DNA of 64,000 bases from Haliotis asinina (lineage: Eukaryota > Mollusca > Gastropoda > Lepetellida > Haliotidae). The notes under the pieces are model-generated. The model worked only from the letters and a program-made list of their open reading frames with translations, was not told the DNA's origin and searched no databases. The translations under genes and the position numbers were made by a program. This document shows positions 40,592 to 61,536 of the stretch, in pieces; the first letter of the stretch is position 1, and each line of letters begins with the position of its first letter. Where the stretch lies: assembly GCF_037392515.1 (NCBI RefSeq), contig NC_090295.1:19422001-19486000 (forward strand). Reading direction: 5' to 3'.

Positions 40592-40985
40592 TCACTTTCT
40601 GCCGGGGCCTGTGGGAAAGATGAACATCAATGTCATCGCACGAAAGCTATTCGTCACATACTAAAATCAAAATTTATAGCTTTTTGCATATGGAATTATG
40701 GAACAACATGAACATAATGTTTTTAACCCATGTGATCGTGTTGAAAACAGGGGAACCTGAACTTTCAGTTTGGATGGGAAGTTTAAGCGCTAAAAGCGGA
40801 GTAAAACTATATTCGCTCATTCAATGGCGTTTTTAACGAGCACTTACAGCTGCCAGACAGGGTATCCCTAACTTCATTAATGTCTAACACATCTGTGAAA
40901 GTGACGATACTAGGGTGACTTGGGCAGTTGGCGATCAGTCGGTCGAAACAATCCAGACCCTCGAACATGTCCCTGAAAGAGAAAA

Positions 40986-41029
<44 letters not shown>

Positions 41030-44000
41030 CTCGTTTTACGAAAACCAAAATAAAGGCTACCCGGGGTAATAATATGCCTGCGTTGACTGTTAGTGCTATT
41101 AGCATTCACCTCGTGAGTTGAGTTTGGCGCACTATAAATGCACATATTATTATCATCATCACTCACTTTACACAAGCCAAAATAAAGCCTATCATCGTCA
41201 TCACCACATCATCACCTTTACTATAATTACATAATCATCCGTCATGTTTACACAAACAAAAATATAGATCATTATCATTATCATTATCACCGCAGTAATT
41301 ATCATCATCATCACCATCATCGTCGTCGTCGGCGTCGTCGTCGTCGTCGTTATCATCATCTCTTCACGTTCACGCAAACCAAACGAAATAAAGCAGACCG
41401 GACTTCACAATTTACTTACCGACATTTGAGTCGAAGGGAGGAACTCGCCGACGCGGCGTTTTGCAGCTGACTGTTGCAGTTCAGGAGTTCCTGTGCTGGG
41501 TCATCCACGTGGCAATTGTCGTCGCCGCCGTTAGTTTTGGCGATACCTTAATGGATGAAGTAAGGTTAGTTGTAATGACTGGTGTGAAACAAAGAAGATT
41601 CTATAACAGTGTTATTATGCAGGGAATTTTTATAGGATTTCCACAGAAAAACAGTTATGTCAGTGTCATCCTCACCATCAGCATGCTTACATCTTGGCCG
41701 CCTAACTTGTTACTACTACAACTGCTGTTGCAACTACTAATAATGCTGCTACTGCTGCTACTACTACAGCTACTGTTGCAACTACTACTGCTGCTGCTAC
41801 TACTACAACTCCTGTTGCAACTACTAATACTGCTGCTACTACTACAGCTACTGTTGCAACTACTAATACTGCTACTACTACTACTACAGCTACTGTTGCA
41901 ACTACTACTACTGCTGCTACTACTACAGCTACTGTTGCAACTACTAATACTGCTGCTACTACTACAGCTACTGTTGCAACTACTACTGCTGCTGCTACAG
42001 CTACTGTTGCAACTACTAATACTGCTGCTACTACTACAGCTACTGTTGCAACTACTAATACTGCTGCTACTACTACTACAGCTACTGTTGCAACTACTAC
42101 TGCTGCTGCTACTGCTACTACAGCTACTGTTGCAACTACTAATACTGCTGCTACTACTACAACTACTGTTACAACTACTACTACTGCTGCCACTGCTGCT
42201 ACTACTACGACAACTACGTTCAATGTGACAAATGTTCTACTTACACTGTTTACGAAGCATGTTCCGTATGTGGTCGAAGTTGACTATATTATTCATAGCG
42301 TTTACGTCTGGCTGGTTGGCACATTTGGTCATGATGTCATCCACACAGTCGAAGCCGGTGTTAGCAACCCTTGAAACAGACATCAACACGTTTCTTGAGC
42401 AAATCAAACAAAATTGCAAAAACATTTCCTTTTCCTTCACTCAAGCACTGGCTTCCAACGAGGCGTTACTTGTGGGCTTTGACAAGCCCAAGGACTGTGG
42501 ATAGTGTACATGCTTCGTATGGTTCCCATGATATTTTGTGGTAATGTGTTTGGAAATTTTTGCCACATTTCTTTACTTTATCGTGGAATGTTATTATAGA
42601 GGGAATTGTGCAGACATTACGGACGGCTGGATACAATACCCTTGAATTTCTTTCTCACATTCCGCCAGTACCTCTCCCCAAGTTTGCCAAAGCCTGATCA
42701 TCCTAACGACCCGTGAAGATCCGGGGTAGAATGGGCTTTCAGCTTGCTTGCCATAAAAGGCGACTATGCTTGTCGTAAGGGGCGACTAAGGGGATCGGGT
42801 GGTCAGGCTCGCTGACTTGGTTGATATATGTCATCGGTTCCCATATGCGCATATCGATGCTCATGTTGTTGATCACTGTATTATCTGGTCCAAACTCAAT
42901 TATTTACAGACCCCCGCCATATAGCTAGAATATTGCTGAGTGCGGTGTAAAACTAAACTCACTCACTCCTCATCCTAACGTTACCCAGCTTCCTATCCCA
43001 ACCCAACCTAATCCAGCCTCCCTATCCTTTGTCCGGTCCCCTGTGCCAAACGTTGCCGAAAGGCTCTTTATCCCAACGTTGCCAGAAATCACTCATCTTA
43101 ATGTTACCAAGGCTTTCTCATCCCATCCCAACTCCCAATCTGCGCGTGCCAGCTTTGTTAAGTCGTCCGGTCTCCCGGGTTTATCCCCATCCCAACGTTT
43201 CCCAAAACGTTTCATCCCTGCGTTACCTCCAAACGTGAGTATAATCTTTCCTTTCATGTCGTTGTTTTTTAAGAAAAACTCAACTCATTAACGTTGTTGT
43301 TCTGCGTCTCTGTTCCAAAGCCTCTTCATCTCAACGTAACTCTAGAATCTCCATCCCAAATACCTAGCTCTCCACCCATCTCAGCGTTACTTCCATGCCT
43401 TCTGAAACTCCAAATCCTACGCAAGATGTCTCATCGCCTCCATTATTACTGCAACACCGCATCCACCCATGAACCTCACACATTACACAGTTACATAATA
43501 TACCAACACCATCTTTACTTCATAAAATCTCCCGCATCCCAAAACCAGCCAACACATCCCATCTCACCCCCATTCCCCGCCCATCCAGCATCCCGCCACT
43601 TCCATGTTATGTGATGCTATGTACCCACCTACACATCTCCTGAACACCTATATACGGTGTCTGCTGGAAATTTTGCAGGGGCTCGATACACTCCAAGAGT
43701 TTCGCCTTGTGATCCGACGGGCAGTCGACGTCAACTGAAACAACAGACCCATTTACAGTTCTATCAATGATCGTCAAAATGAGGGGAAAATTATAATGTT
43801 CTTTACCACTTTTGCGAAACAGAAACGACCAGGAATCGACAACTCTCCGATCATAACCGGGGACATTGTGGGCAAGAAGTAATCACTTTCAGCCATTCCC
43901 GGTTAAAGTAAGGGGTCCGTATACAGGACCACCCATTCCTACCACGAGACATGGAAAGAAGGGAAAAAAGAAAACTGATAATTCGAAACGAAGAACCAGA

Positions 44001-47000
44001 AAACACATACATCTCATGAGAAAAGGCACGGCTTAGTCTGTGAACATCGCAAAAGATTTTATCTCACGAAGAGCATCCATTATTAGAGATCGACGGTTAG
44101 CTTCACTTCAAAAAGTTAATAGTAGGTTCTGTGTCAGACATCTTGGTCTGAAGAAATCTTGAATACATTTGCTGTGGCAATGGCTAACTTCACTTGAAAG
44201 GAAACCAATGGGAAATATGGGAACAGAACTGTCCCTCTTGTCATTTAACACGGCGTTTATGTATGAGTGACATTGTGCTTCAGGGCCCAGATTTTCGAAG
44301 CTCTCTAAGATAGTCGTAAGTTAATGTTAACGCATGGCACTTAGGACTATCTTAGCGCTAAGAGAGCTTCGAAAAGCTAGGCCCCGGGTCCTTAGCCACA
44401 AAGCGTGTGTAGAGTTACGACATACGTGAGCCTGGGATAAACTATACAGTTACGACATGTCGTAACCTTACGAATGATTTGTTGATCGGAGCTCAGGGGC
44501 ATGTCATGAGTTACGCTCACCGACATCTATTGTCAGTCATAACCTTTCATACCCCTGAATCTGGTGGGTCCCGAGCTAGACAGTGTTCCCATCGCTATGA
44601 CCCATCGTAGTTCTACGTTTTATTATAGGCTTCAAACTAGCATGATGCTACGGACACTTTGTGGATAGGGTTTCAGACACATATTACATATCAACTATTG
44701 CATAAATCTTCTGGTGAAGCTCTTATCACTTATGAACCAGTCATATTGTCTTATCAACTAAAATACTCACACTCAGGTACAGACAATCATCACTTATGAA
44801 GTACAATACACACCTCATAGTCCAGACACTTTGACTAATGAACTAAATACTCACATTCAGGTACAGACATTTATCACTTATGAAGTACAATACACACCTC
44901 CTGGTCCAGGCGGTAGCGTACCCGATGCACCTGTAAAAATACGAAACAGTCATACAGGTGTGTTATACGTCATGGGACGCTCCTCCTTTGAGATGACGAG
45001 CGATTGTAATGGTGATGGTGATTGAGACAGTTAAGTTTTGAGAAAACGAAACGTTCAAGACAAAATTTGAAAAATGATTGGGCTCAGAATACACAAACTA
45101 TTTGAACATAAATACGTGCATACACCTAGTTGTGGGTACGGCAACGTGCAGTAACCATGGACAAAGTACTGTGACTATGTGTCCCAATCCACCCAGCTAG
45201 GAATGGGTACCTCGTAAGAATGGGGAAGCCACATTAACTCGATGCGCCTAGTTGACTGCAAGAGTTGTATGATCCCCAGGGAGTTGAGATTGAAAATACT
45301 TTGCGCCGTTGTGATGGGCATCCGTCTTCTTGCAATTCCTGTCGGTGGCGTCAATGTGTGAATAGATGTCACCATTCATTATGCATTTATTCACATGTAG
45401 TGACATAGAATTGGAGGGACTGTGGATAGAATTGGTCAGTGAGTGAGTTTAGTTTTACGCCGCAACCAGCAATTTTCCAACTATATGGCGGTGGTCTCTG
45501 TATAACGAAGCCTGGACCAGATAATCAGTGATTAATGTTCCCCATGAGCATCGATCTGCGCAACTGGGATACGATGACATGTGTCAACCAAGTCGGTGAG
45601 CCCGATCTTCCTGTCCCGTCAATCGCATCTTACGGCAAGCTTGGTTTACTGAAGATCAGTCCTAGCCCGGATCTTCACGGGTCTGGATAGAACGGAACTA
45701 TTGTAGACTTCAAACAGTGAGACAATTTCGAAATCGATATATTTGCATTCTTTCAGCAACCGATAAAAAAGGTAGCAGGGGATCGGATACCTTTATAAAC
45801 TAAGTCAATTCTTACATGCATATAGTACACAAAGAGGAAGATGTATTGTGGTTTCCGGATTAGAACTGGCTTTCACCAACACCTGCTTGTCGTAAAATGC
45901 GACAAACCGGACAGTGTGATGAGACTCACATGCGTAGGACTTCGTATCATTGGTCGAGACTCATGACATCTACCACTAGAATGTCGGTCCCAGGTTCTAT
46001 TAATTACAAACTGACTTCACATGTCATGAATATTGTTGTGGTTACGTTGAACAACAAACAAACGGAAACAGTAAGAAATGTTTGAAAGATCTGACAATAC
46101 TGTAGTTGTCTGCAGCTGAGGGTGCAGCTGTGTACATAATGGGACAGTGTGGTAGCTTAGTGATTGACGCGTTCATTCGTCACGCCGAAGGCCCGGGTTT
46201 GAGTCCTCACATGACTACAATGTCTGAAGCCTATTTCTGGAGTCCAGACACCACAGCGACACCTGAGGATCCACATAAGGAGTACTCACAGACATCGCTG
46301 ATCATACTCCGGGCTGCATCCAGGTTCATGAATTGGGTAAACGCCTGAACGCCAGGGTTGTTTCTGCACGCGTCCATGATATCTTCCAAACAGTCGAAGG
46401 CAACGTTAGCAGCACTATTCAAGTAAAAAAATACTCGTTAAAGTTAACAGTTCTGTTCATTTCAGTTTATTTGTTCCACAAATGCAACCCGTAAAATCCG
46501 TGGTAGAATTGATCTTCAGTAACCCATGCTTGTCGTAAGAGGCGATTAACGGGGCCGGTTTGTCAGACTCACTAACTTGGTTGACATATGTCATCGTATC
46601 ACATGCGTAGATAGTTTTTCATGCTGTTGATTACTGAATTGTTTGGTCCAGACTTATTTACAGATAGTCGACTTATAGACGAAAGATTTCTGAGTGCGGC
46701 GTAAAACTAAACTCACTCACTCAGCCATGCTATCCAAACGGGAAAGGGTAATGTATACTTGCTGACCTGGTTGACCACATGTCATCCTCAGAAATTGTAG
46801 AAGGAATGAATCACCGGATGCCTTGGTTTGTGTTTATTCTGTTAGCTTTTATGTTTTGTTTAGTAATTATATAAATTTTTATTTTTTACAGAAAATATAC
46901 CTAATGTTTATAGTGAGCCAGGGGGTGTTTATAGTGTTTGATGTGTGATCGCTCCTGACACTGCGCGCGAAGCATTGTGTTACTGTCAGATTGTGAAATC

Positions 47001-50000
47001 CGTCATTTCGTGAAATGACTAAAAATTTCAGTCATTTCCTGAAATGAGTATGAGGGTCAGTCGTTTGTGTAACAGCAATCAACATGCTTCAGTCATTTCA
47101 TGAAATTTAGTTTCATCTATATATGGTGGACAGGGGTTTGTGAGGTGTGGCTGCCCTGGACACGGCAACAGTCGCTGTCACAATGGTTCTGTTATTGACA
47201 ATAAGTGATGTTGAAAGTTTTTAACTCCTGGAAGTTAAGTTAGTAAGTGAAATTTCATGAAATGACTGGAGTATATTGATTGTTGTTACACAAAATGGCG
47301 CGAAATGGCTGGCCCTCTTAGTCATTTCACGAAATAACTGATTTCACCATACGTCAGGAGCGATATACGAGCGGAGAAGCGACCGTGCGCTCATGTTGTT
47401 TTGTCCATTTAGTGGTCGGTGGGCGGTGGGGTAGCCTAGTGGTTAAAGTGTTCGCTCGTCACGATGAAGACCCAGGTCCGAGTCTCCGCATGGGTACAAT
47501 GTGTGGAGCATGTGCAATGTAAGTGACCCTTCCTACAATTTATGCACATGTACGTTTTCCCCGCGGGGATTGTACATCAGATTCAATACACGATGACATT
47601 TCATGATGTAGGTCCTAAAACTGACACTGGTCACATCCGAGTATGTGGGTAACATACATTATTCTCATTTTGCATGATTCGTCTTGGATAGAAACGGATG
47701 CATGTTGCATGTAAATATCGAATGAACTTTATCAGAACATTACCCCGGGCTGTAATAACACCACTCCATGTCATTTAATTGACAAATCAATTGGTATTTT
47801 TACAATATCCATTTAGTTGGTGTTTTCTTTTTAATTTATACACTCCACGTAATCAGTTTAAAAACTGAAAAATTGCAATCCGTCCACGGCCTCAACCAAA
47901 CATTTACAGAGTGGATGAGTGCGTTTAGTTTGACGCCGCAGTCAGCAATCTTCCAGCTACATGTCGGCGATCTGAAAACAGCGAATGTAGACCGAATCGA
48001 ATACTTTGCATATACAGTTGAACCCCGTGTACTCGGACCCCACACATCCGGAAATCCCGCCTTCCGGGCGATTTTTAAGTGAAACGAAACTTTAGGTTCA
48101 GTAGTTGGACTCGCATAACCGGACCCCGCGCTTCCGGACCCGGAAGGGGAATTTCCAAATCTTTCCCACAGATTTCCATTGGTAAACCGTTGTATTTGTA
48201 AACGTATGGTAATAATAAGGGTGATAAGATCATTATAGATACATATAGAAACATCATCATCGATTGGGAAATTGATTTTTGATTTCGAGAAATTGCAAAA
48301 GTTCGAAACCGACCATCAACCTATATTTATCGTAAAATCTTTAGTTTTGAGGTGATATCTGTTACAAACTCCAAAGCATCTAAAGAGTCAGACTTGAATG
48401 AAATGGATGGCAGGATTGGGGATTGTTTAGAGGCAGTGAGTGAGTGAGTTTAGTTTTACGCCGCACTCAGCAATATTCTAGCTATATGGCGACGGTCTGT
48501 GAATAATGAGGTCTGGACCAGACAATCCAGTGATCAAGAACATGAACATCGATCTGCACAATTGGGAACCGATGACATGTGTCAACCAAGTCAACTAGCC
48601 TGGCCACCAGTTAGTCGCCTCTTACGACAAGCATAGTCGCCTTCCATGGCAAGCATGGGTTGCTGAAGGCCTATTCTAAACCGGGGCCTTCACGGGCCTT
48701 AGAGGCAGTGGGGTAGGCAAGCGGTTAAAGCGTTCAAAGTCATGCGTCACGAGTACAATGTGCGAAGCCATATCTGGTGTCCCCTCCGTGGTGTTGCTGG
48801 TATATCGCTAAAAGCAGCCTAAAACTAGACTCAATGAATCAATCTAATCTGTTTCACGTTGGCACTGCTAACGCACGAGGAATTTCACTTTCTTTACATA
48901 ATTAATGCACAAATCAGTCTTCCAGTCTTCTTTGTGATCGGATCGACATTGATTTTAACTATTTCACCAGTCCACGTTTCTATTGAAAATAAAATTAGTT
49001 TCAACCCATTGCTAAATATACTCTTCAAAAAAGTAGGGATAATAAACTTTCAATTTGGATAGGAAGTGTAAACGTTAATAAACGTTTCAAGGACAGACAT
49101 CTTATGAACGCACCACCATTTCCCTCTATTACCACCCCTGAACACAACGCATGATATGCACATGCACAACGCAGTAACCCACGTGCATGGGGGTCCCATT
49201 TTTTATTTTGACGTTTTTCAAGAAGGTCGAGAAACCACTTATAACATTAATTTTGACACTCATCTTGTATCACACATTGGTTAGAGTTTGTTTCTAGTTC
49301 TTTGTTTTAAAATGAAAATCGTACACATGCAAAGTGCATGCCATACATCAATCATCTTTCAAAAGCGACTACATTCCAAATAACTATGGTTGTAAGGAAG
49401 TGCAAATGGTGATGCACTCTGAAAACATTCAATAATATCATATCAACTTTGATTGACTCCTTAATCTCCTAAATGTTTTTAATCGTAAATAAAATGACGA
49501 TCCCCTACGTTTTTTGAAGAGTATGCTGTGTAATTGGCATTTGTTTGGTTTACTTGCCTGCACGTTTCATCGTCTATGCTATCCACGTTCATGACTTCTG
49601 GGTTCATGGCCTGCATAGGTGCCACGCAGGCTTGTATTCTGTCCTCATACCCAGCTGGACACTCGCTGTCCCCTGAGAAAGAAGATGAGTATAGCTATAC
49701 ATGGTAAGAGGATAATAATACACAGAGAGTCAGTACACGCGCGTATACATTCATATTTCTTCTACATTTGCTGAATAATTCCATTATTTGTTCCATTGTG
49801 AAGTGTCTGTTGTTTCCTTAGAAACAAATAAAAAGTACTAAGGTAAAAGAATTGAAATTCCTGTCTACATTTATAAAGTATTAATACCTTCACATCGAAA
49901 CAGAAATCTAAACAACAATCTTAAAGTGGGTATATCATATACTTGCTCGTCGATTGGCTCAAGTACCACCGATCGTGGTTTATGTAGAAACTAAAAAAGA

Positions 50001-50400
50001 ATCTTGACTCTGAAGTAAACGCAACAAGTTGCGAGACCATGTGGGGAGACAGCAGCATGCACTTGTAGATTGATATAAACTGAATTCAAGATTTCAAAGC
50101 CGTCCCTGTATCAGTACTCATTCACCACTGACAATTCAGAAGATTGTGGATGGAACGCGTGTATAGCAGGAGCGATTTTCCTCAGGGCGTATATTCAGTG
50201 TCTCACGAACAGGACACTCGGGAACACTTCAATCCTAATATGGCTTCAGGTCGAGAGCGCACGAGGACACTAATATTAGATGGTAATTGTCTTATTCATG
50301 AGCTCTGGATTTTGTAGCAGATGTCCAGTGATCCATTCGAATAATTTTATTAGCATTAATCCTTTATGCCAAATACTGCCAAACGGTCACACACACACAA

Positions 50401-50431
<31 letters not shown>

Positions 50432-53400
50432 CTCACTCACACACTCTCACTCACTCACTCACTCACACTCACTCACACTCACTCACTCACTCACACACAC
50501 ATTGTAATACCGCAAACGGTCATTCACACATTGTATTACTGTCAAATGGTCATACACACATTGTATTACTGTCAAATGGTCATACACACATTCTAATACT
50601 GCCAAATTTTCATAAAAACATTTTAATACTGCCAAACGGTAATACACACATTGTAATACAGCCAAACGGTCATACACACATTGTAATTAAACCTACATTT
50701 ATCAGTGTATCCCGTTTATCAGTATAAACACCATAAGTCCTGAGCTTCCAAATATGAAATCCAAGAAGGGACATTGCCACATTGTCATACTTTCTTTGAT
50801 TTTGTCGGAATGGAAATAGCATAATGACCAAACCACCAATGGGATGATATCATCCTCAGCAGAAAATGAAGACATGGCTACCGAGGGATGCTATCGCCCG
50901 CTTGACATTATAACAGAGTGGAAATAGCATGCTATCTTAAGCACCAATGGGATGCTGTCATGCTTAGCAGAAAAGGACAGAGTGGTGCAGAAAATGACAG
51001 AGTGGAGCAGTGCCACAGCACTCACCTTCCTCAGGACCTCCATCAGTTCCAGCACCACCTGCAGGACCTACACAACAATATGGATATCTGTATTAGTCAT
51101 ATCAGTTCTTCTGGCTAGCTTTTGTCGAAACGTCCGAAACCCTACGAAGTTCTTAAACCCATAATTAACACATTGGCTACGATCAAAGTTAAGAATTCTT
51201 AGGGCTACGAACGTTTCGAGAATAAGGGCCCTGTTTCATATTCAGTAATTCCCACGAGATTTCATAAACACATGATACTCCACCATCCCTTATGTTTACA
51301 GGCGTTTTTTTATCATTATTTAACTTGTTTATCATACAATTGATGTAATAGATACGAGGTATTTTGGCACGCTATGAAAGACAGTCCAATGACTGATGAA
51401 CGGGTAAGGAATTTAAACGTCTTACGTCCCTTCGCGTGTAAGGAGTGAGTGAGTATGATTTTAATCCGCATTTAGCAATATTCCAGCAATATCACTGCGG
51501 GAAATACAAGAAATGGACTTCACAGATTGTACCCATGTGGGGAATCGAACCCGGATCTTCGGCGTGCAGAGCAAACGCTTAACCACTGGGCTACTCCACC
51601 GCCCATCAAGAGGACTGAGTGAGTGAGTTCATTTTCACGCTGCTTTCAACAATATCCCAGCAACATCACGACAGAGGACACCAGAAATGGTCTTCACATA
51701 TTTTACCCATGGAGGAATCCAAACCGGATCTTCAGCGTGATTTACTTGTATGCGTTGTGTAGAGTTTAACAATAATGGGATATTTCGTTTTCGTTTATAT
51801 TTGTCTTATTTTGGTCCACATTTTGAAGTAATCGTCTTCCCCTCTACGACAATTCACCAGTCAAAGGTTTATAAAGCTGAATGTGAGTCAAAGGCATACT
51901 GACATATCGTAGCCACATGCGCCCTCATTTGGTCCATGTTCAGCATGCGGGACAGTTGGGCGGTTTCTGGACGGTCACTGCAAGCCTCCATGTAGTCGCC
52001 CACACAGGTCACGGCAGAGTTCAGGGCGCTGCAAACAAGAAGTGATCGTAGAGTATACATATTTTGTCGTTTTTAAGATTGTATTGTACGAATGGCGCCA
52101 ACGTTTCGGTTGGAGATAGACTATATTTTGTAGTGGAAGTGGTTGCAGCGGTGGCAGTAATAGTAGCAGTGATGATAGTAGTAGTGGTGGTACTAGTAGT
52201 AAAAGTAGTAGTGGTAGTAGCAGCAGCGGCAGCAGTAGTAGTAATAGAGGTAGTAGTGGTAGTGGTACTAGTAATGGTGATAGTAGTAGTAGTGAGTGAG
52301 TGAGTGAATGAGTTTAGTTTTACGCAGCACTCAGCAATATTCCAGCTATATGGCGGTGGTCTGTAAATAATCGAGTCTGGACCAGACAAACCAAGTCAGC
52401 GAGCCTGACCACCCGATCCTGTTCGTCGCCTCTTACGACAAGCAGAGTCGCCTTTTAAGGCAAGCAAGTAGTAGTAGTGGTGATAGTAGTAGTCGTAGTA
52501 GTAGTCGTAATCGTAATCGTAGTCGTAGTCGTAGTCGTAGTCGTAGTCGTAGTCGTAGTCGTAGTCGTAGTAGAAATAGTACTAGTAAAGTGGTGATAGC
52601 GGTAGTGTTACCGGGACTATAAAATTCCAAGTGTTGCAATTACACATTGTGTCCGGCATGTTGGACAACTGATATCGCTGCTGCATCAACCTTCTTCTCC
52701 ACTCACCTGCATACATCATTTAAGTCTGCCGACCCTGAACTAAAGCTCGTCATGACGCTGTTCATGTCCTCTACACATCTCTGCATCCGTGACACAAAGT
52801 CAGGGGGACACACTTCCACCTCTTCCTCCCCCTCCTCTTCTCCATCTTCACCTTCTTCTACCTCCTCTCCAATCTGTGGCCCGCCTGTTAATTCTTCAGG
52901 CAGCTCGTTCGTCTCAATGCCTGCAGCAGAAACATGAACATGAAAGTATTCACTGTATCGTACCTTTACATGTAAAGTATGAAGATCCGGGTTAAAACTG
53001 ATCTTCAGCAACCCAAGTTGCCGTTAAGGATGACTAACGGATCGCTGACTTTGCTGACACGTCATCGTATCCCATTTATATAGATCGACGCTCGTGTTGT
53101 TGATCACTGGATTGTCTGGTCTAGACTCGATTATTCACAGACCGCCACCATATAGCTGGAGTATTGCTGAGTGCGGCGTAAAACAACAAAGCAATCAAGT
53201 ATTACAAATCAGATCACAAAATCAAAAGTTCAAAGTGCATCCTTATGTTGATTATTTTTTAATCATTTTATAATTACAGTTCTGCAAGAGCTGTTCTCGT
53301 ATTGTATCCAGAGGCAGTTCTGCAGGGCCCATCCTGTCAGAGCATCGTTGGGTAGTTGTTTCCAGACAATCCATGGTTCTCCGCACTTTACTGTTAACAG

Positions 53401-56400
53401 CGAAAATTCGTTGTAATAACAAGGAAACATGCATTGAGGCAGAGAATACATACACAACATACGGACAAGTGTTTGGATATTTGATATATTCACTTATTTC
53501 ATAATGAGAAAATATACACAGAGAGATTTGTGGTTTTTTGTTTGTTTGTTGTTTTTTGTTTGTTTGTTTGTTTGTGTCTTTGTTTGGGTGGTGGTGTTTG
53601 TTTGGGTTTTTTTGTTTGTTTTGGTTGTTGTTTTTGTTGTTTATTTATTTATTTTTTATATATTTTTTTTTTTTTGGTTGGTTGGTTAGGTGCTTTTTTC
53701 AGATGTTGTTTATCTTTGCTTTTTTCTGGTTTACCCTACCCTAATTCTATACCTGCTGGAATTTTGCTATTAATGGAGTAAAACATTACTCGCTCACTCA
53801 CAAGATAATTACCCGCATTTTACTTGTGATCTGCCCATAAATTTCCGCAGTCTGTTGGCGCATTTTTGCATCCTCCGGACATCCCTACGGGAACACTGGG
53901 AAATAGTGTTGAGATCTGTTGATGGAGCATCTGTTTCGGGAGCTTCTGTCTCGGGAGCCTCTGTCTCGGGAGCCTCTGTCTCGGGAGCCTCTGTCTCGGG
54001 AGCCTCTGTTTCAGGAGCTTCTGTTTCGGGAGCATCTATCTCAGGAGCTTCTGTTTGTACACCCAAACCTGAATAGAATCATCATGTATTATTAAACAAC
54101 CAATCACACTTTAACACGATTAAATGTATTACACGGGGTTTACAAAGGACATTGGTAATTGGCAAGACCAGAAATGTTGTTGTTTGTCCGTTATGTTATT
54201 AAAAAGTTCAATGTAGTTTGAACCAGTGGTCATTATCCTAACTGTGATAATTTGTGTTTGTATGGACGTGAAGATGAATGACAAGGACGTGACATGGCAC
54301 CAAACACTCGGAACCAACACCCTAAAACAGGACCTCCTGTTTTCCAAGTTCTAGCGCTTCATGTCATACACACTACTGTTCACCTTCACATTTGGTTGAC
54401 ATGTATCATCGTATCCTAATTTGTGTTGATCAGTGAACCTGTTGTTGATCACTGGATTGTCTGGTCCAGACCCGATTATTTACAGACCACCGGCATATTG
54501 CGTGAGTATTGCTGAGTGCGGCATAAAACCTATTCGATCTCATTAGTTTGCACATGTACAAAAGTGGCCATATTCCTCATTACAGGTATTTGTGCATAGA
54601 TACAGTTTATTGTATGCAACTGCACATATGCTCACCCGCGGGCATGTAAACGTGTGACTGTTCCCCTACAGAGATGTTCGTGCATGTAAACATGTGAATT
54701 TTCCCCTATCGAAATGTTCGTGCATATAAACACACGACTGTTTCCCTACAGAGATGTTCATGCATGTATACATATGCTATTCCACCACAGAGATGTTCGT
54801 GCATGTATACATATGCTATTCCAACACAGAGATGTTCGTGCGTGTAAACATGTGACTGTTCCCCTACCGAAACGTTCTTGCATGTAAACGTGTGACTCTT
54901 CCCCTTCAGAAATGTTCTTGCATGTAAACGTGTGAAAGTTGGTACCCGGTAGGATAAGTCATGTGACCCTAGGGGTAATAATAATTATATTGTCTGCGCA
55001 CTCTGCAACCGCATGGAAAATGCACTTAACCAATGCACTTATGTTATCTTCTTTATATACTTACACGCTTTGTTGATGTTGTTTTCAATTAGTTCCAGGT
55101 TTCCCCCCATGGCTACTCTCAGCTGTGGGCATTCGTCAAACAGCCTGTACATGCAACTAATAGCTTCGCCACCATCGCTGCAAATATACACATTATATAA
55201 CTACAACTTGCTTGAATCATGGAATAAAGTCAGGATAACAATAATAATAGGAGAACGTCGAAACCTCTTTCCGTTATCCCAGGACTTCTCTGTACACTAT
55301 CCAAGAACTGTTACATACATTATCCCCGAACTTCTCTGTACACTATCCAAGAACTGTTACATACAATATCCCCGAACTTCTCTGTACACTATCCAAGAAC
55401 TGTTACATACATTATTCCTGAACTTCTCAAAATATTATCCAGAACTGTTACACACATTATCCCTGAACGTCTCAAAACATTATCCAAGAACTGTTACAAA
55501 CATTATCCCTGAACTTCTCAAAACATTATCCAAGAACTGTTACATACATTATCCCTGAACTTCTCAAAACATTATCCAAGAACTGTTACATACATTATTC
55601 CTGAACGTCTCAAAACATCATCCAAGAACTGTTACATACATTATCCCTGAACGTCTCAAAACATCATCCAAGAACTGTTACATACATTATTCCTGAACTT
55701 CTTAAAACATTATCCAGAACTGTTACATACATTATCCCTGAACTTCTTAAAACATTATCCAAGAACTGTTGCATACATTATCCCTGAACGTCTCAAAACA
55801 TCATCCAAGAACTGTTACATACATTATCCCTGAACGTCTCAAAACATCATCCAAGAACTGTTACATACATTATCCCTGAACGTCTTAAAACATTATCCAA
55901 GAACTGTTACATACATTATTCCTGAACTTCTCAAAACATTATCCAAGAACTGTTACAAACATTATCCCTGAACTTCTCTGTACACTATCCAAGAACTGTT
56001 ACATACCTTATCCCTGAACGTCTCAAAACATCATCCAAGAACTGTTACATACATTATCCCTGAACTTCTTAAAACATTATCCAGAACTGTTACATACATT
56101 ATTCCTGAACTTCTCAAAACATTATCCAAGAACTGTTACATACAATATCCCCGAACTTCTCTGTACACTATCCAAGAACTGTTACATACATTATCCCTGA
56201 ACTTCTCAAAACATTATCCAAGAACTGTTACATACATTATCTCTAGATTTCTCTTTACATTATCCAAGAACTGTTACACACATTATCCCTGGACGTCTCT
56301 ACACTATCCAAGTCCTCATACATACGTTATCCCTGGACTTCTGCATACATTATCCAAGTACTCTTTCATACATTATGCCTGGACTTCGCTTTACTTTATC

Positions 56401-59400
56401 AAACTCGTTATCCCTAGATCTATACATTATCCAAGGACTCGTACATACATCATTATCCCTGGAATTCTCTATACGTTATCCAAGTACATTATCCATATAA
56501 TGCCCCTGGACGTCGGTACACATTATCCAAGGACTCGTACGGTACATCGTTATCCCCGGACTTCTCTTTGCATTATCTAAGTACTTCTCCATACATTACC
56601 CCTGGAGTTTCCTATGTACTATCCCTAGATTTATTCAGAATTTATCCATGGAATCCCCTAAACAACATCCTTAACGCTCAAACAAAATCCTCTACATTTT
56701 TTCACTGGATTCCTCTGTAAATTGCCACTCGACTCTGTTCTGGACGCATCTGCACATGATCCATCAACTCATACGTACATTAGTCTTCGCTTCCTCTTTA
56801 CTTTGTCCATGGATTCCTTCATACAATATCACTGGACGTCTTCATTTTCTGTCATCAACACACTGACTCACATCCTTCTAAAAGGACACAATGACGCAAA
56901 ACGAGGTGTGGAAGATTTGTGACTCTGAGAAGGATACGCAATTATAACAACTTTAAAAGAATGTAACCCACTTCCACCAAGAGGGTGTTCCATGTGACAA
57001 TCCCCAATGTTCCCGCACTCTCACTTTCCAGCACATCGTTCTCGTCTACACTTTACCCTGGACCACTTTGTCGCGAGGGTATCCATGCGAGGAACTCCCA
57101 TCCCCAACTTTCCACTCTTTCGTTGTCTTGAGCTCTTTTCGCAGGGACACCGTCCTCGAGAGATCGTCCCTGTAAGGTGCCCCCACTCCACTTTCCAACA
57201 TATCGTTCTCGTGTGCACTTCTACTCTCGACACCAACGTCGAAGAACGCCATTCAAGGTGCTCCCACCTACTTTCCACCCTTTCTTTGCCGTAAGCTCTC
57301 TGCTCTGGACGTCGTCCTCGAGAGGTCCTTTATGCAAGATGCCCCCACCACCACCACCACCACCACCCATCTCACATTCCAACACTAGTATATCGTCCTC
57401 GATGGCGCCTTTACAGCAGGTGACTTTGTCGAGGGGTTCGCCCCATATCCCTCTCTTTCGTTGTAGTGAGATCCCTTACCTTGGATGACTTTGTCGAAGG
57501 TATCCCAGACCCTACCCCAAACTCTCACCTGCAGAAGCTGGGCATCCTCTCCGCTGCTACATTCCCCATGGAATACGCTCCCAGTGGTTCAAAACATCTC
57601 GACAGACCCATTGCGGCACTTTGTACACAAGCTTGACTGTGACTGACGCTGGCTGGAAAAATGTATTGTCCGTGAGTTACACGAAGAGGCAAAATGCTGA
57701 TTTTAGACAAATGGTCGAAATTGATCTGAAAAAAATCTCATTATACGATATTTTTTCAATATAAAATTTAACTATCTCAGTCACAATGTTCATTTACTGA
57801 TGTATTGCACAAACAAAAGTAAAGAATTTAAAACTTCATATTTCAGGAAAGAGGAACACGCCGGACAACCATGCATTGACTGCAAAGGGTCAAGCATCAG
57901 TCGATATTTCGTCCAAAGTTTGGTGACGTCTTTGAAACCTGAAAACTGACGCGACTCGGTGCTGCTACAAGTTGGATTAACAATGCCAAGGTACCTTTTC
58001 AAGTTTTGACGTTTTGGGAATCCCAGTCTGCAGTTGTACGTCATTTCAAAATATACACCTGGTACCATATCTCTTTCTTGGAACCTGTACGTCTGTCTCA
58101 GTTCAAACGAAGATTGTATGAAGTGGTGGACAGAGAGTCACCATCCCTGGACAAGATAATAACTGGTCATTACTCTCCGTCATCGACATGCAACTTTCTC
58201 CATAACTGCAGGGCATGTGCTTTGGTTGAGTGAGTGAGTAAGCTTAGTTTTACGCCGCTTTTAGCAATGTGGGGAATCGAACCAGAATCTTCAGCGTGAC
58301 GAACGAACGCTTTAACCACTTGGTAACCTCGCCGCCCCGCCTTGGTTGAGGAAGGCATCGCATCAAACAATCAGGAGTCCACTACGAGAGGTAGAGTCAG
58401 ACTTTGTCCTTTTCCTGCTTGTTTTGATATGGTTACATCTCCAACATAACATGCTATTGAACGCTCTGATTCACCTTAGTGTGCAACAACAGTTCTGATG
58501 GGTCAATGATATAAATCTCCGATAGTATGCTCATCAAATACGATCGCGATTGAAAAACCAATTCAAACTGAAAACGATATCCCCACACTCTCAGTGATGA
58601 ATTTCATAATTCAGCTAGCCTGACTTCTTGAACCTCTTAACGTACTTAACTGATTACACCGAGCTGTTTTGCAGACTTTCCGCTGTTGCCCATATAACAC
58701 TTGCAGTATTATTTCCATTGCGGCCAGAGGTATATTACCTGTTTAGACAAATACGACAAATAACTGACTGTTGTGTGTTAACATAAAATACATTCTAACA
58801 GACTGATTTTCTGTGAAGTTCTTCCAAATGATGCAGTAAACTCAAAATGGGAACGACAGTTTGCTTTCGATGTTTCCGCACATGCACATCTAACGATGTA
58901 AGTCTTTGCCTCAACCCATAAACTTAAGCGCCCGTTCCGACGTATCGTAAAGCTATACCATGAACTTACGAATGGCGTAAATCTACGAACGCTCTGTGGG
59001 TGGGATACCGCAGTCCGTTGCTATGATGATTAACATAACCTTTTTGTCAGATCAATTGGGAAGGTGATTACTCCTGTCAAATACATACTTCCTGCTGTTA
59101 ACCTTTCCGATGCCACTGTATAGGTCGGTCAGTTACATATTAAGACGAAATTAAAGTGATAATGATAGCAGCCATTCCACTCTGTGTGAAAATTGATTGT
59201 ACATATTGCGAAATATTGTTGTTCCAAGTACCTACTCATTGTTAATGTATCTGAACATGAACACGTCTGAAATGTTGGAATGAACGTTCTGATTGGAATT
59301 ATTTTCAACCAGAAAGTTAATATTGCTTTATTTATATAAAAATCTAGTTTGAGTGAGTGAGTTAAGCTTCTACGTCGCTTTTAGCAATATTCCAGCTATA

Positions 59401-61122
59401 TCAAGGCAGAGGGACACGAAAAATGGGTTTCACATATTGTACCCATATGGGGAATCAAAGTCGGGTGTTGGAAGTGACGAGCGAACACTTTAACCCGTAG
59501 GCTACCCTACCGCTCCTTCCTAGTTTGAAACACGTGATGGTCAATCAAAGATCGTGTCATGTATTCTGCTGCTGCGGGTTGTTTTGTTTGGTAGTTGTTT
59601 AACATTCAGCAACATCCTGGTCTGTAAATAGTCGAATCTGGACCACACAACCCAGTGATCATCGATCTACCAGTTGTGATACGATGACATGTGTCAACTA
59701 AGACAGAGACGAATAGCTCCCAATAGTCGACTCGAACAAGCATCGGTTCCTAAAGATCAATTCTGACCCGATTCTTCTCGGGCGCCTGCCTCGGATGTTG
59801 GTTGGTTGACAGATTGATGTAATACCCACATATTTCTAATTTTAAGCATACAGGTCATTGGTAGACAAGTTATCATTAAATCATGTCATACCATTCTGGC
59901 ACCTACAATAATAATTATTATCGATTCTTCACGTGCATATCACGATAACAGAAATCAATTGTAAATACTTTCGAAAACGGCCTAAGCCCCACCTGTTCAC
60001 AAAATTCCTTTCACAGGTTTCTCTCACTCTCTTCTTCAGCGCCGTTGAGAAAAATTAAAACTTTTTGGAGGCAGGCGCCATGTAGATTAAATATCATATA
60101 TCGTATATATCATGTATTATTCAAATGTCTTTCTTTCCTAATGATCCGCCATGTGCAAGAAAGCTGGAATATTGCTCAGCGCTACTTAAACCTAAACTCA
60201 ATCACTCACTCACTTTATCGATGTGGGAGTGAGTTGTTTGAGTTAAGAAGAGCTCAAACAAAGCAAACAAACATGCACTGAGGACTCCTTGAGTAAGTCC
60301 TAAGTAAATCACATGTCACCATTGTCATAATCATCTATACACTCAGTCCTCACCTGTAAACACAGCTGCAATATGTACAAAATGATTCAACTGACGACAA
60401 GGTATAAGACAAAGAGAAAGCACCGACGGATCTGACCAATAAGCGCCCAGATTTCCATAAAAACTTCCCGTGCAATACACGTGTATGTTCCAGCGTTGTG
60501 GCCATCTCCTCATCACACAAAGTACCCTTTAATATCGGTAAACACTGGGTTGATTATTTGAACATATTTTACATTTGTGCAAATATACAATCATGAAGGG
60601 CAACTGTTACGAAACCTTGCAAAAACCTTTGTCACAACTTTCTATTTTACACCAAATGTTGAGATAAATCAAACCTTTGTCAAGATCAAGAGGATATTGA
60701 AATACTTTTAGTAAATACAGAAGCATGTTTATTTTAAATGTCTAAAATTGCCATGAAATCTTATTCACAGAAGCTGGAGCTTCTATAAACCTAGACACTT
60801 TACAATCACTTACAATATATCATGCATACACTGCATGGAATAGCGTAATGTCATCTTTGGGTAATTGGTTTGTTCGCCCTTTTCTATTTTCATTCACAAA
60901 AAAAAGTATTCTCTAATTTGTTTGAAGCCCGAACTTTTGAAGGCAACGATAACACGAGGTACAAGTTTGTATCCAATAGCATTCAGAATATTTCTGCAAC
61001 ATCAACATGTGATTTGACACAACCAGTGATCCATGCGATGTAAATGAATGTTTAAAGGATATGAAATACAACTTTCACTTACCCAACGCCAGTATTGCGA
61101 GGAAGACAAATTTGGACAACAT
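40592..61122 (-). CDS. Secreted protein with six tandem six-cysteine modules (596 aa, 16 exons)
   Basis: Coding exons, in order: 61122-61083, 57652-57529, 55177-55065, 54068-53813, 53390-53278, 52920-52707, 52028-51904, 51058-51026, 49672-49558, 46414-46290, 44930-44898, 43734-43629, 42369-42245, 41546-41420, 40972-40848, 40608-40592. They total 1,791 nt, exactly 597 codons with TGA. All splice sites are GT-AG except a GC donor after 49558. Residues 1-14 or 1-19 form a signal peptide (MLSKFVFLAILALA). Modules span Cys 22-93, 151-216, 253-329, 344-420, 435-508 and 519-592, each C-x(10-11)-C-x(14-21)-C-x8-C-x7-C-x(21-25)-C. The third-to-fourth and fourth-to-fifth spacings never vary. Linkers are acidic (ETEAP repeats at about 99-140; Glu-rich at about 217-250) or Gly/Pro-rich. 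There is no membrane segment. It is probably an extracellular disulfide-bonded protein; function unknown. It is a paralogue of the gene at 20819-27267. Confidence 0.85.
40784..40820 (+). repeat. SINE-B tail fragment
   Basis: GCGCTAAAAGCGGAGTAAAAC only. Confidence 0.5.
40848..41546 (-). CDS. Exons 14-15 of the six-module gene: module 6
   Basis: Exon 14 (41546-41420, 127 nt) carries the linker IAKTNGGDDN and the first three cysteines. Exon 15 (40972-40848, 125 nt) reads DMFEGLDCFDRLIANC onward to the last cysteine, whose codon is split with the 17-nt final exon 40608-40592 (CPGRK, stop). This module has x11, not x10, between its first two cysteines. Confidence 0.85.
40989..41030 (+). repeat. 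ATC microsatellite
   Basis: About fourteen ATC units, 16 bp upstream of exon 15 in its acceptor region (minus-strand sense). Confidence 0.95.
41130..41365 (+). repeat. ATC/GTC trinucleotide-rich stretch
   Basis: Interrupted ATC runs and a TCGTCGTCG run in intron 14 of the six-module gene. Confidence 0.75.
41705..42215 (+). repeat. CTA/CTG trinucleotide-based minisatellite
   Basis: About 510 bp of ACTACT/GCTGCT with a higher-order period of roughly 45-60 bp marked by CAGCTACTGTTGCAACTACT. It lies in intron 13. It creates a Leu-rich plus-strand frame (41461-42228) and a Val-rich minus-strand frame, neither a gene. Confidence 0.95.
42245..44930 (-). CDS. Exons 11-13 of the six-module gene: module 5
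   Basis: Exon 11 (44930-44898, 33 nt) encodes the linker ASGTLPPGPG. Exon 12 (43734-43629, 106 nt) reads VDVDCPSDHKAKLLECIEPL to the third cysteine. Exon 13 (42369-42245, 125 nt) reads VANTGFDCVDDIMTKC onward. Without exon 11 the frame still fits, but the linker and the preceding Cys codon would change, so exon 11 is supported by codon completion. Confidence 0.83.
42708..42968 (+). repeat. SINE-A copy
   Basis: Near full length in intron 12, tail ACTAAACTCACTCACTC. Confidence 0.92.
42970..43620. other. C-rich degenerate tandem sequence
   Basis: Repeats of the type CATCCCAACGTTNCC recur loosely through 42970-43420 (intron 12). No gene. Confidence 0.45.
44283..44395. repeat. Foldback MITE, same family as 16889-16999
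   Basis: GGGCCCAGATTTTCGAAGCT to AGCTTCGAAAAGCTAGGCCCC, with the shared core GACTATCTTAGCGCTAAGAG. Confidence 0.85.
44396..44724. other. Unassigned intronic sequence with short inverted motifs
   Basis: TTACGACATGTCGTAA palindromes near 44450-44470; no further feature. Confidence 0.35.
44725..44900. repeat. 84-bp tandem duplication ending at exon 11
   Basis: ATCACTTATGAAGTACAATA plus CACACCTC occurs at about 44790 and again 84 bp on, with an older partial copy near 44732. The second copy contains the exon 11 donor; the first carries a decoy donor. Confidence 0.8.
45120..45375. repeat. Dispersed repeat D, copy 2
   Basis: Counterpart of 31535-31805; the 3' part with GCGCTATATAAAT is missing. 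Confidence 0.7.
45436..45690 (-). repeat. SINE-A copy
   Basis: Near full length in intron 10. Confidence 0.9.
45845..46050 (+). repeat. SINE-A copy, strongly diverged
   Basis: GTGGTTTCCGGATTAGAACT, ACTTGTCGTAAAATGCGAC-like text and GGTTCTATTAATTAC blocks remain. Confidence 0.55.
46148..46250 (+). repeat. SINE-B copy, 5' part
   Basis: GGTAGCTTAGTGATTGACGC head and box B GGGTTTGAGTCC; it ends 40 bp from exon 10 of the six-module gene, on its donor side. Confidence 0.8.
46290..51058 (-). CDS. Exons 8-10 of the six-module gene: module 4
   Basis: Exon 8 (51058-51026, 33 nt) encodes the linker GGAGTDGGPEE. Exon 9 (49672-49558, 115 nt) reads GDSECPAGYEDRIQAC on to the third cysteine and ends at a GC donor (TGCAG then GCAAGT). 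Exon 10 (46414-46290, 125 nt) reads AANVAFDCLEDIMDAC onward. The 33-nt linker exon has the same length and phase as exon 11. Confidence 0.85.
46495..46722 (+). repeat. SINE-A copy
   Basis: Slightly shortened copy, tail TGCGGCGTAAAACTAAACTC. Confidence 0.9.
46948..47364. repeat. 417-bp foldback MITE
   Basis: Ends ATCGCTCCTGAC and GTCAGGAGCGAT are exact inverted copies. Inside, GTCATTTC-(A/G/C)TGAAATGAC palindromes recur six or more times and GTGTAACA...CAATCAA segments mirror each other. In intron 9. Confidence 0.88.
47424..47516 (+). repeat. SINE-B head copy
   Basis: GGCGGTGGGGTAGCCTAGTG then GTTAAAG and GGGTACAATGTGTGGAGC; tail missing. Confidence 0.88.
47908..48000 (-). repeat. SINE-A tail copy, diverged
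   Basis: GTTTAGTTTGACGCCGCAGT to GCGAATGTAGACCGAATCG. Confidence 0.7.
48010..48165. repeat. Possible pogo/Tigger-like MITE end
   Basis: ACAGTTGAACCCCGTGTACT and repeated CGGACCCCGC/CTTCCGGAC text resemble ends of pogo-like elements. The partner end was not found. Confidence 0.25.
48439..48698 (-). repeat. SINE-A copy with 12-bp target duplication (type copy)
   Basis: TTAGAGGCAGTG flanks the copy on both sides (48427-48438 and 48699-48710), which proves a retroposon about 260 bp long. Sense 5' end is GGCCCGTGAAGGCCCCGG, 3' end is GCGGCGTAAAACTAAACTC plus ACTC repeats. It inserted a few bases into the 5' end of the SINE-B at 48705-48835. No obvious tRNA, 7SL or 5S head. Confidence 0.95.
48705..48835 (+). 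repeat. SINE-B copy split by a SINE-A insertion
   Basis: Head GTGGGGTAGGCAAGCGGTTA; box-B segment deleted; tail AAAGCAGCCTAAAACTAGAC. The SINE-A at 48439-48698 interrupts its first bases, so this copy is older. Confidence 0.85.
48840..49550. other. Unassigned intronic sequence
   Basis: Intron 9; no feature recognised. Confidence 0.4.
49680..50385. other. Unassigned intronic sequence
   Basis: Intron 8; no feature recognised. Confidence 0.4.
50390..50502 (+). repeat. CA / ACTC microsatellite
   Basis: ACACACAA runs pass into ACTCACTCAC runs. Confidence 0.95.
50503..50690 (+). repeat. about 30-bp tandem repeat
   Basis: Six copies of ACACATTGTAATACTGCCAA plus ACGGTCAT with changes. Confidence 0.9.
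50805..50990 (+). repeat. Partial tandem duplication, about 112 bp
   Basis: GTGGAAATAGCAT...CACCAATGGGATG...CAGCAGAAAA-type text occurs at about 50808 and again near 50920. Confidence 0.65.
51178..51225. repeat. Half copy of the foldback at 21781-21866
   Basis: GATCAAAGTTAAGAATTCTT then CTACGAACGTTTCGA. Confidence 0.45.
51443..51604 (-). repeat. SINE-B copy
   Basis: Nearly intact, tail to head complement CTGGGCTACTCCACCGCCC. Confidence 0.92.
51612..51742 (-). repeat. SINE-B copy, older
   Basis: Second copy directly beside the first; the head is missing. Confidence 0.8.
51904..52920 (-). CDS. Exons 6-7 of the six-module gene: module 3
   Basis: Exon 6 (52920-52707, 214 nt) starts with a strongly acidic linker (GEEVEEGEDGEEEGEEEVEV) and then CPPDFVSRMQRCVEDMN. 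Exon 7 (52028-51904, 125 nt) reads ALNSAVTCVGDYMEAC onward. The intron between them holds a SINE-A and trinucleotide arrays. Confidence 0.87.
52138..52292 (+). repeat. GTA/GTG trinucleotide array
   Basis: Interrupted AGTAGTGGTAGTAG run, next to the SINE-A tail at 52293. Confidence 0.9.
52293..52468 (-). repeat. SINE-A copy, internal deletion
   Basis: Tail and 5' part present; the GATCGATGC middle block is missing. Confidence 0.9.
52469..52580 (+). repeat. AGTCGT hexanucleotide array
   Basis: TAGTCGTAGTCG run of about 100 bp on the other side of the SINE-A. Confidence 0.95.
52980..53185 (+). repeat. SINE-A copy
   Basis: From GAAGATCCGGGTTAAAACTG to TGAGTGCGGCGTAAAAC in intron 5. Confidence 0.88.
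53278..54068 (-). CDS. Exons 4-5 of the six-module gene: module 2
   Basis: Exon 4 (54068-53813, 256 nt) holds a linker of about eight ETEAP-type pentapeptides, then QCSRRDVRRMQKCANRLRKF. Exon 5 (53390-53278, 113 nt) reads KVRRTMDCLETTTQRC onward. Module 2 is basic, unlike its acidic linkers, and has the shortest gap (x14) between its second and third cysteines. Confidence 0.87.
53540..53690 (+). repeat. TTTG / T-rich low-complexity stretch
   Basis: TTTGTTTG runs followed by a T-run; the hydrophobic frames here are artefacts. Confidence 0.85.
53746..53803 (+). repeat. SINE tail fragment
   Basis: CTGCTGGAATTTTGCTATTA to CTCGCTCACTCAC, 10 bp from exon 4's donor. Confidence 0.55.
53930..54050 (+). 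repeat. 15-bp minisatellite inside a coding exon
   Basis: About eight copies of TCGGGAGCCTCTGTC; on the minus strand it encodes the ETEAP repeats of exon 4 and keeps the frame. Confidence 0.95.
54395..54530 (+). repeat. SINE-A copy, 3' half
   Basis: GGTTGACATGTATCATCGTA to TGAGTGCGGCATAAAACC. Confidence 0.85.
54640..54935 (+). repeat. 40-bp minisatellite, about 7 copies
   Basis: GAGATGTTCGTGCATGTAAA plus CATGTGACTGTTCCCCTACA, in intron 3. Confidence 0.92.
55065..57652 (-). CDS. Exons 2-3 of the six-module gene: module 1
   Basis: Exon 2 (57652-57529, 124 nt) finishes the signal peptide (ASVSHSQ) and reads ACVQSAAMGLSRCFEPL to the third cysteine. Exon 3 (55177-55065, 113 nt) reads DGGEAISCMYRLFDEC onward. 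Together with module 2 it has the 113-nt second exon, where modules 3-6 have 125 nt. Confidence 0.85.
55275..56640 (+). repeat. 46-bp minisatellite, about 23 copies, with degenerate flank
   Basis: ACATTATCCCTGAACTTCTC plus AAAACATTATCCAAGAACTGTTACAT repeats cleanly to about 56250 and decays to about 56640. It lies in intron 2 and creates the false frame at 55013-55558. Confidence 0.97.
56641..57528. other. C-rich degenerate intronic repeats
   Basis: Loose repeats of TTTCCANCATATCGTTCTCG type (about 160-170 bp apart) and a CCA run at 57345-57368. No exon seen. Confidence 0.45.
58230..58341 (-). repeat. SINE-B copy, internally deleted, with target duplication
   Basis: TTGGTTGAG flanks it on both sides (58222-58230 and 58342-58350). 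Confidence 0.9.
58351..59343. other. Unassigned intronic sequence
   Basis: Intron 1 of the six-module gene; nothing recognised beyond a weak inverted motif near 58930-58990. Confidence 0.4.
59353..59519 (-). repeat. SINE-B copy with target duplication
   Basis: CTAGTTTGA flanks it (59344-59352 and 59520-59528). Confidence 0.92.
59596..59785 (-). repeat. SINE-A copy, diverged
   Basis: ACATTCAGCAACATCCTGGT to CCCGATTCTTCTCGGGC. Confidence 0.75.
59790..61080. other. Unassigned intronic sequence
   Basis: Intron 1 of the six-module gene; a SINE tail scrap at 60158-60214 (AGCTGGAATATTGCTCAGCG) is the only repeat seen. Confidence 0.4.
61083..61122 (-). CDS. Exon 1 of the six-module gene: signal peptide
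   Basis: ATG to a phase-1 GTAAGT donor, encoding MLSKFVFLAILAL plus the first base of Ala14. The single-module gene has a 37-nt exon of the same design. Confidence 0.85.
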
Positions 61123-61189
61123 TGCTCCGTAGCTTGGCACCGCGTGTACCGAGGATGTTGTAATGAAGCTGTGTGAAGACCTATGTTGG

Positions 61190-61195
61190 TTTATA
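61190..61195 (-). promoter_or_regulatory. TATA box of the six-module gene
   Basis: GGTATAAACC on the minus strand, about 70 bp before the ATG; transcription would start near 61160. Confidence 0.75.
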
Positions 61196-61536
61196 CCCCA
61201 ATTCTCTGTCTGAAATGTCAACTGTACATCCGCTTAGTTCTGGCCTCTGTCGCAGTTGACATTATGACTCGTTAATACACAGACCGAGATACCGACATGG
61301 TTTACAATAATTATATAATTATCTTCTAACTTGCCATATGGTCACTGTAACGTGAAAACGGAAAAAACACTGACTGCTAAATTCAGTCTAGGGGAGCTTG
61401 CATAGTATGTACGGTATACGAATACACCATGCTGTTTAGAATGTGGACAAATGTAACACATGCTATATTTGGGATTGTTCTTTCTCAGTAAAACACGGAT
61501 TGTAGCACTTTTGTTAGGTTGAATCACATTCAGAAT

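Follow-up and report, generated by a model that had tools for sequence, protein, structure and literature searches.

The vetigastropod Haliotis asinina carries, on the minus strand of the window analysed here (a stretch of 64,000 nucleotides), a gene for a protein of six tandem six-cysteine modules, and a sister gene lies head to head with it just beyond the end of the window. We refer to the two as genes A and B and to their products as proteins A and B. Our preferred reading, to which we give about an even chance, is that gene A is a functional member of a divergently transcribed abalone pair, and that its product is an acidic secreted protein whose six modules, small bundles resembling the N-terminal domain of RGM, work outside the cell as a multivalent scaffold or binder. 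The most fitting description of protein A is a row of RGM-N-like modules in tandem.

The window covers positions 19422001-19486000 of contig C16 in the 1.14 Gb H. asinina genome (G000). Gene A extends on the minus strand from an ATG at window position 61122 to a stop codon at 40592, and comprises 16 exons whose phases agree across all 15 junctions, both as given by the initial annotation. The exons of the splice model are, in window coordinates:

61083..61122, minus strand: exon 1, ATG and hydrophobic leader, phase out 1
57529..57652, minus strand: exon 2, first half of module 1 (C1-C3), phase 1 to 2
55065..55177, minus strand: exon 3, second half of module 1 (C4-C6), phase 2 to 1
53813..54068, minus strand: exon 4, EAPET linker repeats and first half of module 2
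53278..53390, minus strand: exon 5, second half of module 2
52707..52920, minus strand: exon 6, Glu-rich acidic linker and first half of module 3
51904..52028, minus strand: exon 7, second half of module 3, the most RGM-like slot
51026..51067, minus strand: exon 8, linker-only, phase 1 to 1
49558..49672, minus strand: exon 9, first half of module 4, followed by a GC-AG intron as in the paralogue
46290..46414, minus strand: exon 10, second half of module 4
44898..44930, minus strand: exon 11, linker-only (SGTLPPGPG), phase 1 to 1
43629..43734, minus strand: exon 12, first half of module 5
42245..42369, minus strand: exon 13, second half of module 5
41420..41546, minus strand: exon 14, first half of module 6
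40848..40972, minus strand: exon 15, second half of module 6
40592..40608, minus strand: exon 16, final 17 nt with the TGA stop

The coding sequence amounts to 1800 nt with the stop codon and specifies 599 residues, so that the 597 codons counted earlier fall two short. Of the introns, 14 have GT-AG borders; the remaining one, GC-AG, begins at the donor of exon 9 (window 49557-49556, AG/GCAAGT). The splice search was confined to 16 blocks picked by eye and to GT donors; the top model of that search departed from the final one at exons 9 and 12, the correct acceptor of exon 3 came second in rank, and exons 3, 9 and 12 were set by hand from phase and from the cysteine pattern. Afterwards, the finished model proved identical (100% identity over 100% of the 599 residues) to an entry that is already public at NCBI as "uncharacterized protein [Haliotis asinina]". 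Gene A is a real gene that encodes a real six-module protein. The contrary view, that the model is an artefact or the gene a pseudogene, could appeal to a model built from genomic sequence alone; it is contradicted by the identical NCBI protein, by the open paralogue and the counterparts in Haliotis rubra, which keep all 36 cysteines, and by a dN/dS below 1 overall between gene A and its paralogue, and we regard its probability as negligible.

The introns of gene A and the rest of the window hold several other features. Intron 2 contains a minisatellite with 24 copies of a 46-bp unit (window 55274-56387). A dispersed repeat, which we label SINE-like, occurs in nine copies on both strands (window 23152, 25039, 27471, 35589, 39511, 42914, 48453, 52317 and 53145) with at most 3 mismatches over 40 bases, where no copy is expected by chance; those at 42914, 48453, 52317 and 53145 are inside introns of gene A. 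A 23-bp array of 32 copies occupies 34654-35386, and a 341-aa open frame on the plus strand (37676-38701) has no Pfam match at E <= 0.01. A 260-aa frame on the minus strand (4605-5387), probably the remnant of a mobile element, weakly matches the integrase core (rve, E 2.6e-4) without reaching the cut-off. Finally, a 216-aa frame on the minus strand (13252-13902) matches the SAM-dependent carboxyl methyltransferases (PF03492, E 6.7e-17), a family found chiefly in plants. This copy contains a stop within the match and looks truncated; the genome holds at least 35 matches to the family at E <= 1e-3, including on contigs C1, C11 and C15, many of them clustered and each contained in one uninterrupted frame of some 390-470 aa.

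Protein A consists of a leader and six modules of the form C-x10/11-C-x14..21-C-x8-C-x7-C-x21/25-C, located at residues 22-93, 151-216, 253-329, 347-423, 438-511 and 522-595 and holding 36 cysteines in total. From module 1 to module 6, the first gap measures 10/10/10/10/10/11 residues, the second 20/14/21/21/18/17 and the fifth 21/21/25/25/25/25, and the third and fourth are invariably 8 and 7 (six of six modules each). When the four inner cysteines were placed at random, both middle gaps were constant in 0 of 200,000 trials, which bears out the earlier statement that this constancy goes beyond chance. The other parts described at that time, namely the leader, the six modules with their 36 cysteines and the acidic and Gly/Pro linkers, are all found in the spliced product: the first exon has 13 codons and holds a hydrophobic leader, and the linkers comprise EAPET repeats, a Glu-rich run and Gly/Pro runs. 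For the mature protein the pI is calculated at 4.24, and N-glycosylation sequons are absent from it; the paralogue and H. rubra LOC124287172 have two each. The leader is the only hydrophobic segment: the best 19-residue Kyte-Doolittle mean past residue 25 is 0.88, as against 1.83 in the leader, and the C-terminus has no hydrophobic tail suited to a GPI anchor, in agreement with the previous finding of no transmembrane or GPI segment. Protein A is described here as putatively secreted.

The exon structure follows the modules with great regularity. In both gene A and its paralogue each module is encoded by a pair of exons with phases 1 to 2 and then 2 to 1; the inner junction follows the third-cysteine codon at a distance of exactly 2 nt, and at the outer junction the sixth-cysteine codon is interrupted between its first and second bases. 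Both rules hold in 6/6 modules of gene A and 6/6 of the paralogue. The linker-only exons (exons 8 and 11 in gene A, three in the paralogue) run from phase 1 to phase 1, and could therefore be gained or lost without a change of frame.

A search of the whole genome with protein A gave 24 exon matches, of which 12 belong to gene A, nine to gene B and three, all beginning in the EAPET linker, to places elsewhere. Gene B is on the plus strand, head to head with gene A, and the two start codons are about 6.6 kb apart; the initial annotation was right about the six-module gene itself and could not have included this neighbouring paralogue, which lies outside the window. We rebuilt gene B from C16:19489758-19511953 (+) as 17 exons encoding 678 residues and six modules, and this model is a reconstruction of the present analysis, for which the database searches returned no protein entry. 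It possesses a GC-AG intron after exon 9, in the same place as gene A. All 36 cysteines of the two proteins are aligned (36/36), and identity is 56% over 586 aligned codons. Between the two genes, dN/dS by the NG86 method is 0.36 overall, 0.43 for the modules and 0.21 for the linkers plus leader; the YN00 method gave 0.48 overall, 0.53 for the modules and 1.06 for module 2 alone, and failed for three of nine subsets. Given the value above 1 for module 2 and the failed subsets, selection on single modules has not been uniformly strong.

The likeness of the two genes continues upstream of their start codons:

61168..61198, minus strand: proximal promoter block with a TATA box (TATAAA, 61190-61195, located 73 nt upstream of the ATG); gene B has a conserved counterpart of the block

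Between -188 and -25, 113 of 165 alignment columns are identical, the TATA box included, and the alignment score of 54 compares with a best of 28 among 300 random 200-mer pairs. The block has no second match in the window at up to 3 mismatches.

Counterparts of both genes are present in H. rubra. By BLASTP, LOC124287173 is 75% identical to protein A and represents the counterpart of gene A, and LOC124287172, at 54% identity to protein A, that of gene B. Both have the same six modules with all cysteines kept, and differ from the H. asinina proteins in the lengths of their linkers. The same longest contig (7,398,166 bases) is listed for both entries, so the two loci probably lie on one contig in H. 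rubra too. At least two species of Haliotis thus have the module array. A tree of 24 modules, six from each of the four proteins, groups them by slot with the minimum possible number of changes (five), with 3 of its 21 inner branches well supported and with slot 5 alone needing two changes; the layout of six modules was most likely in place before genes A and B arose by duplication.

Searches of the protein database with full-length protein A returned only the two H. rubra proteins as other module-bearing relatives. Modules 3-6 of the four proteins retrieved no further relative at E <= 1, nor did residues 251-626 of LOC124287172 at E <= 10. These searches need shared words of five residues, and a wider spread of the module is possible. 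Neither six peptide strings nor the two H. rubra locus names were mentioned in the literature searched.

No Pfam family matched protein A or any of its six modules over the cut-off, in keeping with the first reading of the gene, which could name no family. When all 24 modules were compared with Pfam, RGM_N, CPG4 and LRR_2 each matched two of them at E <= 1, and nine more families, including DUF1397 and C_GCAxxG_C_C, matched one each. The best match was that of RGM_N (PF06535) to module 3 of gene B (E 9.4e-5, 23.0 bits, where the cut-off is 24.2); the second RGM_N match, of 13.8 bits, fell on module 3 of an H. rubra protein (P0002), and 0/6 modules of gene A matched this family at E <= 1. The top rows for module 3 of gene A were C_GCAxxG_C_C (E 0.0052) and CPG4 (E 0.0075). 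Among 60 shuffles of gene B module 3 with the cysteines held fixed, RGM_N and CPG4 were matched by none at E <= 1, and the best match to any family had an E of 0.011. Values of about 0.005 to 0.01 consequently mean little, and only the RGM_N match stands out. The family had been left without a name, which holds as far as Pfam cut-offs go, but this overlooked that C-x8-C-x7-C is the spacing of the RGM N-domain.

In that domain (PF06535; RGMB structures 4UHZ and 6Z3J) the last five cysteines are spaced 22-8-7-21, compared with 14..21-8-7-21/25 in the abalone modules. H. asinina has an RGM N-domain of its own (C3:84841359-84841565, 64.7 bits), with gaps of 4-22-8-7-21 as in RGMB. The modules share the gaps of 8 and 7 in 24/24 cases, and their last gap is 21 in eight and 25 in 16. 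A profile of the 24 modules aligned by hhalign to three RGM N-domains scored 24.0, with a probability of only 46%; the maximum was 17.1 among 400 column shuffles with fixed cysteines (200 within segments, 200 global) and 17.5 among 200 shuffles of the RGM side. Against single RGM sequences, shuffles did as well in 0/200 cases for RGMB and 5/200 for the abalone RGM. Module 3 of gene B was also compared with PDB sequences: the first three of four matches were RGMs, at E values of 0.35-0.66, with C-x8-C-x7-C aligned free of gaps. Taken slot by slot, the RGM score was reached by 0/100 of the slot's own shuffles in slot 3 (where one shuffle scored 24.7 against the real 25.1) and 0/100 in slot 4, by 5/100 in slot 6, 11/100 in slot 2, 16/100 in slot 1 and 95/100 in slot 5. 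The likeness to RGM therefore reaches beyond the cysteines in slots 3 and 4, is borderline in slot 6 and is absent from slots 1, 2 and 5; the two RGM-like slots may speak for the whole array.

These results also bear on the alternative that the module is a lineage-specific fold, which reached independently a helical C-x8-C-x7-C spacing that it has in common with RGM. Slots 1, 2 and 5, with no RGM signal past the cysteines, fit such an origin, as does the lack of a Pfam family over the cut-off. Neuritin, with gaps of 9-24-8-7-27, provides an example of the spacing without profile similarity to the modules (24/200 shuffles as good), and the weak matches of CPG4 (E 0.0075) and DUF1397 (E 0.031) point in the same direction. 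On the other hand, independent convergence has to contend with the cysteine-fixed shuffles, none of which reached the RGM score (0/400 and 0/200), and with the 0/60 shuffled module-3 sequences that matched RGM_N at E <= 1. We consider it possible, if rather unlikely.

An AlphaFold model of the full-length protein, based on a three-protein alignment, has three helices in each of modules 1 and 2 and four in each of modules 3 to 6. Its mean pLDDT of 58.3 and pTM of 0.25, with module 6 the best, make it too weak for a claim about the fold; Foldseek found no PDB match to it at E <= 0.001, and a VIA structure comparison gave no telling match. In our preferred reading of an RGM-N-like array, each module would most likely form a small helical bundle comparable in general type to the RGM N-terminal domain, with three disulfides holding together three helices in modules 1 and 2 and four helices in modules 3 to 6.

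According to PMC7354924, the N-domain of RGMB, built of three helices with three disulfides, binds both GDF5 and BMP2; in the RGMB-GDF5 complex Gly101 and Leu103 are situated in the linker past the fifth cysteine and His106 on the third helix, and published variants at these three residues weaken or abolish binding. Counted from the fifth cysteine they occupy positions +2, +4 and +7. Among the 24 abalone modules, Gly is found at +2 in one, a hydrophobic residue (L, I, M, V, F) at +4 in four and an aromatic residue or His (H, Y, F, W) at +7 in none, and +4 is Pro in 16/16 of modules 3-6. With the BMP-contact residues missing, BMP binding of the RGM type is not expected. The near absence of equivalents of Gly101, Leu103 and His106 likewise speaks against a role as an RGM-type BMP co-receptor. 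The same counts, including the proline at +4, tell against a soluble array that traps BMP/TGF-beta ligands multivalently, in the way in which the N-domains of RGM and Twisted gastrulation bind them singly. Such a trap would draw on the RGM_N similarity of the modules and on the binding of GDF5 and BMP2 by the RGMB N-domain described in PMC7354924; we think it improbable. A related scenario, in which an RGM-N-like domain became a six-bead secreted array, was doubled head to head and traps growth factors of the TGF-beta family or others through a surface different from that of RGM, we judge just as doubtful.

A further possibility is that the modules belong to a broad superfamily of secreted invertebrate proteins (DUF19, CPG4, DUF1397 and their kin), with roles in egg coat, cuticle or haemolymph and a nematode egg proteoglycan as the nearest functional analogue. 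CPG4, DUF1397 and DUF19 are secreted animal Cys-rich domains. CPG4 (PF15481) matches 2/24 modules at E <= 1 (best E 0.0075) and DUF1397 (PF07165) one (E 0.031), and the acidic, possibly O-glycosylated linkers would suit such roles. Human neuritin, recognised by hmmscan as NRN1 (E 6.9e-40), weakly matches DUF19 (E 0.0027), and such families may therefore be linked. All of the module matches, however, remain below the cut-off (17.2 of 32.7 bits for CPG4, 14.1 of 25.7 for DUF1397). DUF19 (PF01579) itself, which the initial annotation had put forward as the first lead in the form PF01579/T20D4.11-like, disappoints: it has no match to protein A at E <= 10 and matches 0/24 modules at E <= 1. No frame in the genome passes the cut-offs of CPG4, DUF1397 or DUF19, a weak result coming from an exon-by-exon search in which control genomes were also silent. 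The NRN1 profile (PF15056) matches 0/24 modules at E <= 1, and DUF19 is named in a table row of PMC3534327. Membership in this superfamily seems unlikely to us; a remote kinship of RGM_N, NRN1, DUF19, CPG4 and DUF1397 within a single helical fold with six cysteines is possible, and is offered as a lead.

Under the preferred reading, the modules of protein A would be strung like beads on acidic linkers rich in Thr/Pro or Gly/Pro, and the protein might serve as a multivalent scaffold or binder in extracellular matrix, mucus, egg coat or haemolymph, rather than as an RGM-type BMP co-receptor; this scaffold role is our best guess from the architecture alone. Shell matrix, immunity and egg coat were each considered as a settled function and set aside, because each is a guess among which the evidence does not choose; twelve passages of PMC6003135 compared with a shell matrix role contain nothing that fits protein A. 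A pair of proteins called only uncharacterized in the database searched now has a module defined by fixed cysteine gaps and intron positions, and this module is tied, within the limits given above, to the RGM N-terminal domain.

The array departs from RGM itself in several respects. The first cysteine gap is 4 in RGM, in contrast to 10 or 11 in 24/24 abalone modules. RGM has a C-terminal RGM domain and a GPI anchor, whereas the whole of protein A has no Pfam match to the former at E <= 10 and no hydrophobic segment near its C-terminus. The RGM N-domain of the abalone is contained within one open frame, whereas an intron interrupts every module past C3. Neuritin, a single GPI-anchored domain, is nearer to the modules in its first gap of 9; its profile likeness to them does not exceed that of cysteine-fixed shuffles (24/200 as good), and the abalone protein has six tandem modules in place of one domain. 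In one or two of the abalone proteins, module 3 is weakly matched, below the cut-offs, by CPG4 and DUF1397. To our knowledge, RGMs carry their N-terminal domain singly, unlike the six tandem copies of the abalone protein. The N-domain of Twisted gastrulation, as described in PMC11167000, is a compact, secreted three-helix domain locked by disulfides, similar to our reading of the module, but it packs seven disulfides into about 50 residues and is found in no row of the Pfam or PDB matches of the modules. If the proposed fold holds, tandem arrays of RGM-N-like modules would represent a new way of using that domain.
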